Part shown: in pieces, positions 18,486-41,839 of the stretch
Layout: each line of letters begins with the position of its first letter
Numbering within the stretch: position 1 is the first letter of the stretch
Assembly (NCBI GenBank): GCA_947489705.1
Contig: CANLEQ010000002.1
Span: 186,001-250,000, forward strand
Length of the DNA: 64,000 bases
DNA from: an uncultured Paracoccaceae bacterium
GTDB lineage: Bacteria > Pseudomonadota > Alphaproteobacteria > Rhodobacterales > Rhodobacteraceae
Reading direction: 5' to 3'
The notes under the pieces: model-generated
The model's input: only the letters and a program-made list of their open reading frames with translations
Database searches by the model: none
What the model was told of the DNA's origin: nothing
Translations under genes and position numbers: made by a program

Positions 18486-18695
18486 TTACGCCTCCGACTG
18501 GGCCGCTTGCGCGGCCTTTTCGTTCAGGATCGTCTTGACCCGCGCCACGTCCCGGCGGACGATCCGCATGCGGGCCGTGTTCTCGAGCTGGTTGGTCGCC
18601 GCCTGGAAGCGCAGGTTGAACGCCTCTTTCTTCAGGGCGCCGAGCTGGTCCCGAAGCTCATCGGGCGTCTTGTCGCGCAGTTCGCTGGCTTGCAT
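18486..18695 (-). CDS. rpmC: 50S ribosomal protein L29
   Basis: 69 residues. The start at 18695 ([14 protein letters not shown]) is favoured over an ATG two codons upstream because AAAGGA lies 6-8 bases before it. Core motifs: [21 protein letters not shown] and [15 protein letters not shown]29 lies at the peptide exit and helps bind trigger factor and SRP. Normally it follows rplP directly; here two unrelated genes (18907-20329) intervene, so rpmC needs its own promoter or read-through. Confidence 0.96.
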
Positions 18696-18860
18696 CGCCA
18701 TTCCTTTCGTCAACATCACCGGAGGGCCGTGCGAACACGTCACCCTGATTCCCGGTGGAGATGGATGAACGCGCCGTATAGACAGCGGAACCGTCATTGG
18801 CAAGGGCCTCGTTGGACCGCCTTAGTCATCCAAAAATCGTTTCATCGGGCCCAAACGCAC

Positions 18861-18906: not shown

Positions 18907-19458
18907 TCAGGCTTTGGAAGCCTTGCGCTTGCGGCGAAGAGCCACGACGCCTCCGACGCCGGCAAGGTAGAGCAAGCCTGCCGCCGGAAGCGGCACCGCC
19001 GCCGTGTTGGTGGCGAACGTCACCTGGTTGCCGCTCGCGCCGGCCGAACCGTTGATGAAGAACGACAAGGTATCGCCCTGATTGAGCATCATCTCGAGAA
19101 AGCTCGAGCCCGTCGCGGACGCATTCGGCGAGTTGAAGGGCGAGGGCGTCGGAATGATGTCGAGCGCCGTCGTTTCACCGCCGTTCACGGCATAGCTCAG
19201 CGAGATGGAATTCGCGGGGAACCCGCCGGTCGCGTTGAACGGATTGATCGTGATGCTGGTGAACGAATTCAGCCAGTCAGCCGCCGTGAACGACAATTCG
19301 GTCCCGCCGAAGGATTCACCGGCAGTCGCGATCGCATTGGCAAGCGACGAATCTCCGCCCGACAACGGCGATTGGTAGGGTGTGGTTGTGAGCGCGTTCG
19401 CGGAAGAAACGGCAATGATCGACAAGGCTGCAGCAGCAGCAATTTTTCTCATAAACAT
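18907..19458 (-). CDS. VPLPA-CTERM sorting-domain surface protein
   Basis: 183 residues from ATG 19458 (or MRKIAAA two codons later); AGAGGTAAAG precedes it. A signal peptide (MRKIAAAAALSIIAVSSANA) is followed by a Ser/Thr/Asn/Gly-rich beta-type region. The C terminus is tripartite: VPLPAAG, a hydrophobic helix and the basic end RRKRKASKA. This is the VPLPA variant of PEP-CTERM sorting signals, processed by an exosortase in gram-negative bacteria, so the product is probably exported and surface- or biofilm-associated. No exosortase gene is in the window. Only one copy of the signal is seen here. Its position inside the S10-spc ribosomal cluster and its AT-rich upstream region suggest insertion by transfer or rearrangement. 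Confidence 0.88.
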   Translation of the reverse strand: MFMRKIAAAAALSIIAVSSANALTTTPYQSPLSGGDSSLANAIATAGESFGGTELSFTAADWLNSFTSITINPFNATGGFPANSISLSYAVNGGETTALDIIPTPSPFNSPNASATGSSFLEMMLNQGDTLSFFINGSAGASGNQVTFATNTAAVPLPAAGLLYLAGVGGVVALRRKRKASKA

Positions 19459-19708
19459 GATATTCTTTACCTCTGTTGTCGGGAGCGCCGGTCGCGGCAC
19501 TCCTTACGCAAACAGAGCTATAGCATTTTAAGTTCGGTGCTGTTTAGACAAATTTAAGAAAAGATAGGTGAAAAACTATCGTTAATTTGATCATGTGAAA
19601 AGACATCGGGATCATGGTTAATCGGTCTTACCCGAGGCCACGGGAATTGCGATCCTCATTCCAACTACGCAACATCTGCTAAAGCGCGCAAATCTTCGGT
19701 CCCTCGCC
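19459..19708 (-). promoter_or_regulatory. AT-rich upstream region of the CTERM gene
   Basis: This 250-bp gap is visibly richer in A+T than the surroundings, especially 19510-19640. On the minus strand TTGTCT (19546-19551 area) is followed by TAAAAT near 19527-19532, a possible promoter with a short 15-base spacer. The composition suggests either a silencer-bound regulatory region or recent acquisition. Confidence 0.35.
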
Positions 19709-20329
19709 TCATTCCCACCGATAGTTGAAACTGACACTCACACGCTCCTCCTCGCTCATGTTCATGGGCACCTCGTGCCGGAGCCATCCTTCCCACAAAA
19801 GAACGTCGCCCACCTCAGGAGTGACGTAGACGAACTGCTTCAGTTCACGTGCCACATCCTTGCGCCGGGGGGGCGCCGCCATCATCATCGGCAGACGCGG
19901 ATCCTCGAACTTGATCGCCGACGTTCCCTCTGGCATCGCGACATATGTGGTTCCCGAAATCACGGAATGCGGATGCAGATGCCCGGAATGGACACCGCCT
20001 TCCGGGAGTATGTTGATCCAGAGATCATCGAGGACCAGTTTCCGTGTTCCCAGGTCAAAACCAAGCGCCTCGGCAAAGCGCGCGACATGCCCATCGAGCA
20101 ACTTCGCGACCTCGGCAAAAATCGTGAAGCGCCATGTCAGATCGGTCAGCGACGCATAGCTGGTATATCCGGGAAAATCGTTTTCTTCACACCAGAGCTG
20201 TCCGGCTTCATCGTCTTCGGCAATCGAGATGCATGACGCCGCAAGTTCCGCCGGGTCGATGGAGCCCCCCCCTTCCACCAGGGCCGCCCGGTAGAGAGGG
20301 GTCACGAATAACGACGATATTTGCGGCAT
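19709..20329 (-). CDS. TIGR02466-like putative 2OG-Fe(II) oxygenase
   Basis: 206 residues resembling the TIGR02466 family of putative 2-oxoglutarate/Fe(II) oxygenases. Seen: LDDLWINILPEGGVHSGHLHPHSVISGTTYV (quoted in part: HSGHLHPHS at 114-122), IKFEDPR (140-145), GDVLLWEGWLRHEVPMN with the probable distal ligand H185, and EEERVSVSFNYRW with R196 as candidate 2-oxoglutarate contact. The exact metal triad is inferred. AAAGGAAGG precedes the ATG. It lies directly downstream of rplP (L16), separated by a terminator, and upstream of the CTERM gene. E. coli YcfD/RoxA is a 2OG oxygenase (of another subfamily) that hydroxylates L16 at Arg81, so a ribosomal substrate is an attractive inference, not shown. 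Confidence 0.78.
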   Translation of the reverse strand: MPQISSLFVTPLYRAALVEGGGSIDPAELAASCISIAEDDEAGQLWCEENDFPGYTSYASLTDLTWRFTIFAEVAKLLDGHVARFAEALGFDLGTRKLVLDDLWINILPEGGVHSGHLHPHSVISGTTYVAMPEGTSAIKFEDPRLPMMMAAPPRRKDVARELKQFVYVTPEVGDVLLWEGWLRHEVPMNMSEEERVSVSFNYRWE

Positions 20330-20397
20330 GGACCTTCCTTTAATCTAAGACGGCAGCGATTGCGGGGGGCTCATATAGGGCTAGGCTCCCCGAACGG

Positions 20398-20426
20398 GAA
20401 AAGCCCCCACGAATCGCAGGGGCTTT
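20398..20426 (-). terminator. Terminator after rplP
   Basis: On the minus strand AAAGCCCC and GGGGCTTT form an 8-bp stem around an 11-base loop, followed by TTTT. It lies 30 bases past the rplP stop and splits the S10-type operon before the oxygenase gene. Confidence 0.7.
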
Positions 20427-20455
20427 CAGAGGTCGTCGGGAATTCCGGTTGCGTA

Positions 20456-20869
20456 TTACCAGTCTTCGCGAACCACGGTACGGGTCTTGATCGGCAGCTT
20501 CATCGCTGCGAGGCGAAGCGCCTCGCGAGCGACCGTTTCGCCGACACCATCGATCTCGAACATGACCCGGCCTGGCTTGACCTTCGCGGCCCAGAAGTCG
20601 ACCGAGCCCTTGCCCTTACCCATGCGAACTTCGACGGGCTTCGAGGTGACGGGCACGTCGGGGAAGATACGAATCCATACCCTGCCCTGACGTTTCATGT
20701 GACGCGTCATGGCACGGCGCGCGGCTTCGATCTGACGGGCGGTGACGCGCTCGGGCTCGACCGCCTTGAGGCCGAAGGTGCCGAAGTTCAGATCCGATCC
20801 CCCCTTCGCCTCGCCGCGAATGCGGCCCTTGTGCATCTTGCGAAACTTGGTGCGCTTCGGTTGTAGCAT
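20456..20869 (-). CDS. rplP: 50S ribosomal protein L16
   Basis: 137 residues, full length ([20 protein letters not shown]-like [42 protein letters not shown]). L16 organises the A-site tRNA region of 23S rRNA. R82 in VRMGKGKG is equivalent to E. coli Arg81, the residue hydroxylated by YcfD/RoxA. It follows rpsC by 12 bases and is followed by a terminator, not by rpmC as usual. Confidence 0.98.
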
Positions 20870-23087: not shown

Positions 23088-23266
23088 GCTTCCTGTCTTC
23101 CGTTGTGTGGCGGGCCTCGCTGCGAGGTCCGCGGTTGAAGGGCCCCGAAGGTCCCCGTGAGGCGCAGACGCGAGGTCTGCGAAAGTCTAGATTGCAGCGC
23201 CACGGCGCGAACCGGGGCGGTGCAGCGTCTCCGACATCTCGGAAGACGCGCTTCTCGCACCTGGAA

Positions 23267-40276: not shown

Positions 40277-41839
40277 TCACTCAGGGCCGTAGGCAGGCGC
40301 CTCGCTCTCGGGCACCGGCCCCAGCCCCGCCATCTTGCGCTCGACGAGCGTCACGCGGTCGTCGAAGCCGAGCGCCAGAACCGCGGGCACCCGCCCGTCA
40401 CGCAGGAAAGACAGCGCGAACTTGCCGCCCTCCGGCGTGCCCCCGATGTCGTCCCATTCGGAGGCATGCCCGGTATAGGTGTAGGAGCCCTTGGCCTGCT
40501 GCATCGTCCAGAAGAAGGGCGTCCCCTCATAGACCTTTCCCTGGCCCAGCATGTTCCGCGCGGCAAGCTCGCCCAGCTCCTGCGCGAATCGCCAATGCTC
40601 GATCCGCAGCTTGCCCCAGTTCGTCGGCACCTGCGCGATATCCCCGGCGAGATAGATGTCGGGATACCCGGGAACGGCCAGCGTCTCTTCCACCGCGATA
40701 CCTCCGTCACTCTCGGCCGGGAACGGCAGCCAGTCGGTCCTCGGCTGCGCACCGACCGCGACCAGCACGAGGTCGCATGCGACAGGATCGCCACCGTCGA
40801 TATCCACCTGCCGCACATCGCCATCGCCGGTGAAACCCGCGACATCCACCCCGGTGACCATGCGCACACCCGCCTCGCGCTGCTCGCCTAGGATCCGGGT
40901 CCCGAACGCGGCCCCGAATTTCTTGGCCAGCGGGACATGCTCGCGCAGGATCATCGTCACCTCGACATCGTCGCGCCGGCCGAGGAACGTCGCCGCCTCG
41001 AGCCCGATGAAGCCTCCGCCGACGATCGCCACGCGGCATGTCCCGTCGCGCGTATGCGCCGCGATATCGCTGCGCAATGCGTCGGCATCCGCCTTGGTGC
41101 GGATCTTGTGAATGCCCGCGAGATCCGCACCGGGCAATCCGAGGTCCCGCGCGTCGCAACCCGTGGCGATCAGAAGCTTGTCGTAACCGATAGGCTCGCT
41201 TTCGCCTTCGAGACGGAGCGTCCGCGCCCCGGGATCGATCCCTGCCGCACGGCCGTGGTGGATCTCGATATCGAATTCGCCGATATCCTCGGCGGCGCGC
41301 ACGGCAGGCGTCTCCGGCGCGTCCGCGCCCTTGAGGTATGCCTTGGAGAACGCCGTCCGATCGAAGGGCACGCCGCCTTCGTTGGTGACCACCGTGACCG
41401 CCCCCTCGAATCCTTCACGGCGAAGGGTTTCGGCCGCACGCCACCCTGCCGCGCCGCTTCCGACGATCACGAACCTGCGTGCGTCGTTGCCGCGCCGCGC
41501 GATTTTTGGAAGCGGATGAGGCACCCTGTCGGCAGGGATCGTGACGTGGACATCGCCGTCCTCGATGCGCACGGGATAGGTCGCCAGCGCCTCGCAGGCC
41601 GGAGGCGCGATCAGATCGCCGGTCTCGAGGTCGAAGGATGCGCGATGCGCCGCGCAGACGATCCGACCGCCGTCGACCGCGCCGTTCTTAAGCGGCACGC
41701 CCTTGTGCGGACACGTCGCCGCGACCGCGTGAACCTTGTCCGCCTGACGAACCAGAAGCACCTTGGTATCGCCGATCTCGACCTCGGTCGGGGTGTTCTC
41801 CTCCAGATCGCTCAATGCGAGGGCGTGATGTTCGGTCAT
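40277..41839 (-). CDS. Rieske-type ferredoxin/FAD-NAD reductase fusion (AIFM3-like)
   Basis: 520 residues. An N-terminal Rieske [2Fe-2S] domain has C43-P-H45 and C62-A-A-H65 (TCPHKGVPL, CAAHRASFD). A class-I pyridine-nucleotide-disulphide-type FAD reductase follows, with two dinucleotide folds (VIVGSGAAGWRAAETLR and VAIVGGGFIGLEAATFL), LLIATG, and DIYLAGDIAQVP for flavin. A C-terminal reductase domain ends the protein. Domain order matches AIFM3-like and ferredoxin reductases that pass electrons from NAD(P)H. The partner and substrate are unknown. It sits between rplA and rplJ with a terminator on its 5' side, so it is a separate transcription unit wedged in the ribosomal cluster. Confidence 0.9.
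   Translation of the reverse strand: MTEHHALALSDLEENTPTEVEIGDTKVLLVRQADKVHAVAATCPHKGVPLKNGAVDGGRIVCAAHRASFDLETGDLIAPPACEALATYPVRIEDGDVHVTIPADRVPHPLPKIARRGNDARRFVIVGSGAAGWRAAETLRREGFEGAVTVVTNEGGVPFDRTAFSKAYLKGADAPETPAVRAAEDIGEFDIEIHHGRAAGIDPGARTLRLEGESEPIGYDKLLIATGCDARDLGLPGADLAGIHKIRTKADADALRSDIAAHTRDGTCRVAIVGGGFIGLEAATFLGRRDDVEVTMILREHVPLAKKFGAAFGTRILGEQREAGVRMVTGVDVAGFTGDGDVRQVDIDGGDPVACDLVLVAVGAQPRTDWLPFPAESDGGIAVEETLAVPGYPDIYLAGDIAQVPTNWGKLRIEHWRFAQELGELAARNMLGQGKVYEGTPFFWTMQQAKGSYTYTGHASEWDDIGGTPEGGKFALSFLRDGRVPAVLALGFDDRVTLVERKMAGLGPVPESEAPAYGPE

Follow-up and report, generated by a model that had tools for sequence, protein, structure and literature searches.

A TIGR02466 oxygenase as tenant of the rplP-rpmC seam in the S10-spc ribosomal gene cluster of Rhodobacteraceae

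In most of the Rhodobacteraceae genomes surveyed, the oxygenase gene behind rplP occupies an operon seam. Our best explanation, to which we give an even chance, is that it is a separately transcribed gene in this seam, that a component of translation is the likeliest class of substrate, and that its location is owed in part to trapping. The S10-spc cluster of the family is cut between rplP and rpmC; its first half would end at a terminator behind rplP, and its second half begins with its own structured leader RNA ahead of rpmC. The TIGR02466 oxygenase would form its own transcription unit in the seam, where it may face either way and the rest of the cargo turns over. It would oxidise a protein or other large molecule, with a translation component as the likeliest single substrate class, and as the halves of the cluster rarely separate, the gene would be trapped between them, which may explain its location at least partly. 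Two of the new points are firm, namely the HxH motif of the TIGR02466 family and the structured element ahead of rpmC.

Results

Layout of the seam in the window

The window, by which we mean the whole stretch of 64,000 nucleotides that was analysed, carries an S10-spc cluster on its minus strand (Table 1). This cluster is broken between rplP and rpmC, with the oxygenase and a VPLPA-CTERM protein inside the break. Profile matches confirm both genes that the earlier note had named, rplP and a TIGR02466 oxygenase, on the minus strand. Its description of the oxygenase as lying directly behind rplP is right as to gene order and strand, but 126 nt separate the two genes and hold a 13-bp hairpin; similarly, the gene does sit inside the S10-spc cluster, between rplP and rpmC, but the cluster is itself interrupted there. 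The hairpin has a z-score of -2.35, with 3 of 200 shuffles folding equally well, and two simple terminator scans do not flag it. A strict sigma-70 scan of the window likewise reports no promoter at the promoter-like elements seen by eye ahead of the leader. By tblastn, the VPLPA-CTERM protein matched two loci in all, the window's own included, and the window's own gap contains no inverted repeats of at least 11 bases able to drive flips. Further upstream in the same cluster are frames that we take to encode EF-Tu and uS12. Elsewhere in the window, the protein encoded at 40277-41839 on the minus strand resembles Rieske-type and FAD-reductase-type families, although no match exceeds its NCBIfam cut-off; the frames on its two sides are presumably rpoBC and rplA-rplK-nusG.

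Table 1. Features of the rplP-rpmC seam and its surroundings in the window
Feature	Position	Strand	Basis
L2-Alphaproteobacteria leader RF03142, ahead of rplB	23090-23156	-	Rfam 15, 54.6 bits
rplP (ribosomal protein L16/uL16), VRMGKGKG with R82	20456-20869	-	TIGR01164, 199.3 bits
terminator-like hairpin of 13 bp with a terminal U run, in the rplP/oxygenase interval	20399-20427	-	folding
oxygenase-like gene, 206 aa	19709-20329	-	TIGR02466 and PF13759 matches
VPLPA-CTERM protein, local cargo of the gap	18907-19500	-	TIGR03370, 26.2 bits (cut-off 25.35)
promoter-like TTGCCA / CTATAC ahead of the rpmC leader	18776-18803	-	seen by eye
structured leader RNA, 12 base pairs (10 covarying), ending at the rpmC start	18696-18773	-	covariance model
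rpmC (L29), first gene of the cluster's second half	18486-18695	-	ORF and L29 match

The oxygenase and its candidate metal site

The oxygenase matches TIGR02466 over its full length (residues 6-205) at 270.6 bits, against a cut-off of 62.5, and PF13759 (2OG-FeII_Oxy_5) at 119.4 bits, against a cut-off of 27; a protein search of its own genome at E 0.001 returned it as the single match. The close solved relatives 2rg4 and 3bvc are both labelled uncharacterised, and we found no paper describing a function of the TIGR02466/PF13759 family in the open-access literature searched, in agreement with the earlier note's remark that no such system had been described. The AF2 model (pLDDT 94.3) has N-terminal helices followed by a beta-helix core through to the C-terminus, in one domain. 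Foldseek places 3bvc and 2rg4 at the top (TM 0.96-0.98, 71% identity; from Roseovarius nubinhibens and Oceanicola granulosus), next the chains of the P. putida P4H, among them those of its complex with EF-Tu (4iw3; E 1e-7, TM 0.57-0.59), and further down an uncharacterised Burkholderia protein, PHYHD1 and PHD2. The model and the matches to P4H, PHYHD1 and PHD2 together give a predicted double-stranded beta-helix of the 2OG-Fe(II) oxygenase superfamily, of prolyl-4-hydroxylase/PHD-like type and with a 2OG-type RxS anchor.

The candidate metal residues are H117, H119 and H185, and the candidate 2OG anchor is R196-x-S198; the invariant columns of a 48-sequence alignment include H114, H117, H119, H185, R196 and N202. 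We counted these residues in 181 proteins of at least 190 aa (81 from the 101 genomes surveyed below, 80 from named loci and 20 from the outgroup; the genome and named sets overlap, and two cut proteins of the genome set were left out). H119 is a histidine in 181/181 and H117 in 180/181, the exception being an aspartate in G063 (L212), while R196 is present in 181/181 and S198 in 179/181, supplying in sequence the basic residue plus Ser/Thr that anchors 2OG in the superfamily. In one ortholog, that of G046 (L193), the C-terminus is divergent and looks frameshifted, and H185 there is uncertain. Of 80 viral homologs fetched, 79 were counted, L298 being set aside as a 62%-identical near relative; all 79 keep H117, H119 and H185, and R196 and S198 are each kept in 75. 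Among the positions checked near the candidate metal histidines in these homologs, no acidic residue is conserved family-wide.

The family thus reads HxH...H and not the HxD/E...H iron triad of the 2OG-Fe(II) superfamily. The paralog L393 has GGYNAPHTHP where the PF13640 protein L391 has GGHFAPHRDN, a pattern that reads by eye as GGxxAPHxH versus GGxxAPHxD. An hhalign profile comparison with PF13640 proteins, which might have placed H119 relative to the aspartate of HxD, gave a probability below 1%. Because of the L391/L393 pattern, the invariance of HxH and the lack of a family-wide conserved acidic residue, we place a histidine at the position where the iron-binding aspartate of this class is expected, as judged from sequence. 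We infer that the three-histidine site would bind a metal and use 2OG. An HxH site supporting such chemistry would break a rule of the superfamily: one study reports that the engineered HxH of human P4H (D414H) abolished activity (PMC2767507), which counts against our explanation, and another notes an HxH variant of untested activity in one JmjC subgroup (PMC2453528).

Linkage to the rplP-rpmC gap

We surveyed 101 genomes of the order, all of one family in the taxonomic scheme used. L16 and L29 were found in 101/101, and the oxygenase matched at E 0.001 in 84, of which 83 are strong (at least 250 bits) and one, G057, is weak only (44 bits). Strong orthologs sit at the rplP-rpmC gap in 81/83 genomes: 75 lie between the two genes on one contig, four adjoin rpmC and two adjoin rplP; the remaining two, in G018 and G073, lie elsewhere. 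The conserved linkage to rplP that the earlier note had predicted is therefore borne out more strongly than its author could know. The six one-sided cases comprise three at contig ends and three true cluster splits by position, in which the oxygenase stays by rpmC twice (G096 and G030, with rplP 521 kb off or on another contig) and by rplP once (G059). Where the oxygenase is absent, the gap was measurable in 16 of 18 genomes, and is 113-503 nt in 12 of them and 902, 929, 1186 and 2745 nt in the others; the 75 gaps with the oxygenase range from 915 to 101,644 nt. A second set of 80 named loci, selected for holding the oxygenase and overlapping with the 101 genomes (L101, L109, L130), gives the same arrangement: the oxygenase lies between rplP and rpmC in 68/68 loci that hold both (42 in the same orientation, 26 opposite), with eight further loci holding one of the two genes and four neither. 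Ruegeria, Sulfitobacter and Thalassovita are among the genera represented.

The gap (loci L141-L257) is an insertion site with changing cargo, and with the oxygenase inside its length runs from 0.9 to 101 kb. Among fully captured gaps, 67/85 hold the oxygenase and the next family, of 244 aa, is found in 10/85, in a count that omits three clusters of frames overlapping the oxygenase by eye.

Orientation within the gap is mixed. With rpmC as the reference, or rplP if rpmC is on a different contig, the orientation is the same for 36 of the 81 genes and opposite for 45. Mapped on a FastTree phylogeny built from 14 ribosomal proteins, orientation needs 11 changes, presence eight and place two. Some forks of this tree are weak; the starred branches alone force nine changes for the label "opposite" and eight for "same", each label being scored against all other rows, absence included. 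The two flanking genes are themselves within 10 kb of each other in 86/101 genomes. As a contrast, accA and pyk, a single pair chosen after the data were seen, are within 10 kb in 33/101 and within 30 kb in 56/101; of the 48 genomes with the two within 20 kb, 45 have them in opposite and three in the same orientation. The pair accA-nusG was rejected as a baseline, as it is not an ancestral pair and is within 10 kb in 1/101.

Outside the family the linkage is absent. A class survey of 289 genomes, which includes our own and three other matching genomes of the family, gave orthologs of at least 159 bits (42-67% identical) in 20 genomes of other alphaproteobacterial families, with weaker matches only in 55 further genomes. 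The ortholog and rplP share a contig in 4/20 (the nearest 68 kb apart) and lie on different contigs in 16/20; in 20/20, the distance from rplP to rpmC, measured between aligned ends, is 17-92 nt, with no oxygenase between. Around the 20 outside orthologs and the two moved ones (123 frames), no neighbouring family occurs in more than two loci. Cyanophages encode remote homologs; the phage family that matches is classed as moron, auxiliary metabolic gene and host takeover.

These observations bear directly on the closest rival of our explanation, in which the location is purely historical: the gene became trapped as the cluster divided, and its substrate is a small molecule or something else unrelated to translation. 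Since rplP and rpmC themselves stay close, any gene that lies between the two would have to move by itself in order to leave, and their proximity in most of the genomes means that trapping alone may explain the linkage, with no translation link needed. The unrelated, non-recurring neighbours of the orthologs elsewhere, none of which lies in the gap among the 20 outside genomes, count against our best explanation and favour this rival; the free orientation and the cyanophage homologs with their classification also favour it. Against it, the gene is kept in 83/101 genomes while the other genes of the seam turn over, and it has relocated only twice against the 11 changes of orientation. We regard this reading as somewhat short of an even chance.

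A probable transcription unit of its own

Terminator-like hairpins were flagged behind rplP, at a distance of up to 200 nt, in 67/85 intervals: in 55/69 genomes with the oxygenase (two of which are genomes with a moved gene) and 12/16 without; shuffles give expectations of 1.3 and 0.2, which are rough, the shuffles being mononucleotide. Of the genomes with the opposite orientation, 13/43 have the oxygenase back to back with rpmC and starting no more than 260 nt from it; of those with the same orientation, 4/36 have its end within that distance of rpmC. The gene is co-directional with rplP in the window, but across the genomes it is not a member of an rplP operon in the sense of a co-directional gene with no terminator between. 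Because of the hairpin after rplP and the mixed orientation, with its many changes against two relocations, the oxygenase appears not to belong to an rplP operon. The gap and, in most intervals, the hairpins are present with and without the oxygenase, and the two halves of the cluster would probably be transcribed as separate units.

A structured leader ahead of rpmC

The second half of the cluster begins with a conserved RNA element directly ahead of rpmC. The alignment comprised 78 nt from each of 92 genomes; the other nine of the 101 were held out by choice (five with long loops, four close to others). The structure, drawn from the same alignment on which it was scored, has 12 pairs in three nested helices; 97.6% of cells are paired, compared with 86.7 in shuffles, and 10/12 pairs show two-sided changes. 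The covariation score is 0.383 against 0.161 in shuffles, with 0/500 shuffles as high, and sliding the pair partners destroys the signal. RNAalifold, unaided, recovers nearly the same structure. In the window alone there is no folding-energy signal (z 0.15), so the case for the leader is made by covariation and not by folding energy.

A covariance model finds the window's element at 63.5 bits, the only other match there being at 12 bits, and recovers 91/92 training loci (all but G014) and 9/9 held-out ones, hence 100/101 genomes. It also finds the element in 73/80 named loci, exactly the 73 that hold rpmC, ending within 3 nt of the rpmC start. The leader is present in 17/18 genomes without the oxygenase and is therefore independent of it. 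In 20 outgroup clusters nothing scores above 12.6 bits. Rfam 15 has no match at the element in 11 sequences (the window and four loci by E-value, six at gathering thresholds), and the same scans detect the L2-Alphaproteobacteria leader in nine of the 11. A word search of the main text of a 2020 survey of ribosomal leaders found neither L29 nor rpmC there (PMC7247131), and further searches of the open-access literature found nothing on an rpmC leader. We consider the element a strong candidate for a hitherto undescribed cis-regulatory RNA.

Candidate substrates in translation

If the oxygenase acts on the translation machinery, its substrate might be a component other than L16, such as EF-Tu, uS12 or a protein of the L29/S17 side, a reading that we consider rather unlikely when taken by itself. 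The window offers some encouragement, the frames that we presume to be EF-Tu and uS12 lying upstream in the same cluster, and in two of the three split clusters (G096 and G030) the oxygenase stayed by rpmC, although in the third (G059) it lies by rplP. Precedents exist: one study describes a Pseudomonas enzyme of the P4H kind that hydroxylates EF-Tu (PMC4682802), and another reports OGFOD1 acting on uS12 (PMC4396695). The first characterised enzyme in the Foldseek ranking is likewise the P. putida P4H, whose structure 4iw3 contains EF-Tu; such fold similarity is, however, generic for the superfamily, and neighbours at about 12% identity carry no information on substrate. The HxH motif also differs from the HxD of the EF-Tu and uS12 enzymes, and residue-level support for any of these substrates is nil.

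The substrate proposed in the earlier note was L16 itself, hydroxylated at a conserved arginine by an enzyme that replaces YcfD. That arginine is indeed kept: the window's L16 has R82 within VRMGKGKG, which we take to correspond to E. coli Arg81. Residues 82-89 (RMGKGKGS) are nevertheless invariant regardless of the oxygenase, in 83/83 genomes with it and 18/18 without. We compared 2942 columns of 19 ribosomal proteins of the cluster with the presence of the oxygenase. The best-associated column is L16 position 54 (Fisher p 3.7e-10; M in 76/83 genomes with the oxygenase and 3/18 without), and position 79, three residues ahead of the arginine, is T in 18/18 genomes without it and V in 36, I in 25 and T in 22 of the 83 with it, so that V or I stands there in 61/83. 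S17 72, L5 158, L2 122 and other columns follow at 1e-9 to 1e-8; with many proteins associating nearly as well, the signal is spread and not specific to L16. Most of these differences are accounted for by the clade from which the gene is missing. When six L16 columns were examined in independent pairs (at most seven, on starred branches), none was significant, positions 54 and 79 agreeing in only 2-3 of 7 pairs and never going the other way. With at most 7-8 independent pairs, correction for 2942 tests would leave no individual column significant, and no substrate residue was drawn from coevolution.

The suggestion that YcfD would be absent holds to the extent that the JmjC_2 domain of YcfD was not found in the oxygenase's own genome and that none is above the cut-off in 91/101 genomes, but the pattern is not complementary. 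JmjC_2 hits occur in 11/101 genomes (10 above the cut-off, nine strong), all of which also carry the oxygenase, with none in the 18 genomes that lack it, so replacement of YcfD was rejected as a pattern. A search of the oxygenase against Pfam down to E 10 gave PF13759 and two weak non-JmjC matches, without JmjC_2, and the 206-aa protein has neither the dimerisation nor the winged-helix domain of YcfD. As a separate observation, the JmjC_2 protein at L378:1177-2352 (minus strand), the sole one compared with the PDB, is NO66/MINA-like, with NO66 as its nearest match (E 2.5e-31) and YcfD as a distant one (6.5e-8); eight genomes besides that of L378 carry strong JmjC_2 proteins.

Despite the conserved place behind rplP, the arginine, the lack of JmjC_2 in the own genome, the L16 columns and the G059 split in which the oxygenase stayed with rplP, L16 as substrate is not supported and is very improbable, given the invariance of its motif, the terminator-like hairpins and changing orientation, the HxH in place of HxD/E, fold neighbours that are P4H-like rather than JmjC-like, and the G096 and G030 genomes, in which the oxygenase lies beside rpmC and away from rplP.

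Discussion

Our analysis describes the oxygenase as an occupant of the seam that is probably transcribed separately, and a role in translation of any kind, L16 included, is a tentative proposal that we place a little below an even chance. A fuller and bolder version appears unlikely to hold in all its parts: TIGR02466 proteins would be 2OG oxygenases with an all-histidine iron site, the Rhodobacteraceae member would hydroxylate a translation component, and it would do so from a flip-tolerant seam beside a family-specific leader. If the oxygenase does act on the translation machinery, the status of oxygen, iron and 2OG would be tied to translation in a large bacterial family, through an enzyme that lacks JmjC_2, the domain found in the ribosomal oxygenase known from bacteria. 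Independently of the enzyme, the terminator, the gap and the leader may show how the S10-spc super-operon was divided across a whole family.

Comparison with known systems places these elements among their relatives. Set beside TIGR02466/PF13759 and its solved members 2rg4 and 3bvc, the window's oxygenase is a full-length member and shows no difference. The first characterised fold neighbour, the P. putida P4H (4iw3, 4j25; E 1e-7, TM 0.50-0.67), is 11-14% identical to it, and HxH replaces the HxD of the P4H class. YcfD/RoxA, MINA53 and NO66 (JmjC_2, PF08007) share the same broad fold, and YcfD is reported to act on L16 Arg81 (PMC4295552); the oxygenase, in contrast, is a single domain of 206 aa without JmjC_2, has HxH and not HxD/E, and is P4H-like by fold search. 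The rpmC element, a candidate ribosomal-protein leader of Rhodobacteraceae, does not match the L2-Alphaproteobacteria leader RF03142, which precedes rplB and is likewise a leader RNA within the same ribosomal cluster.
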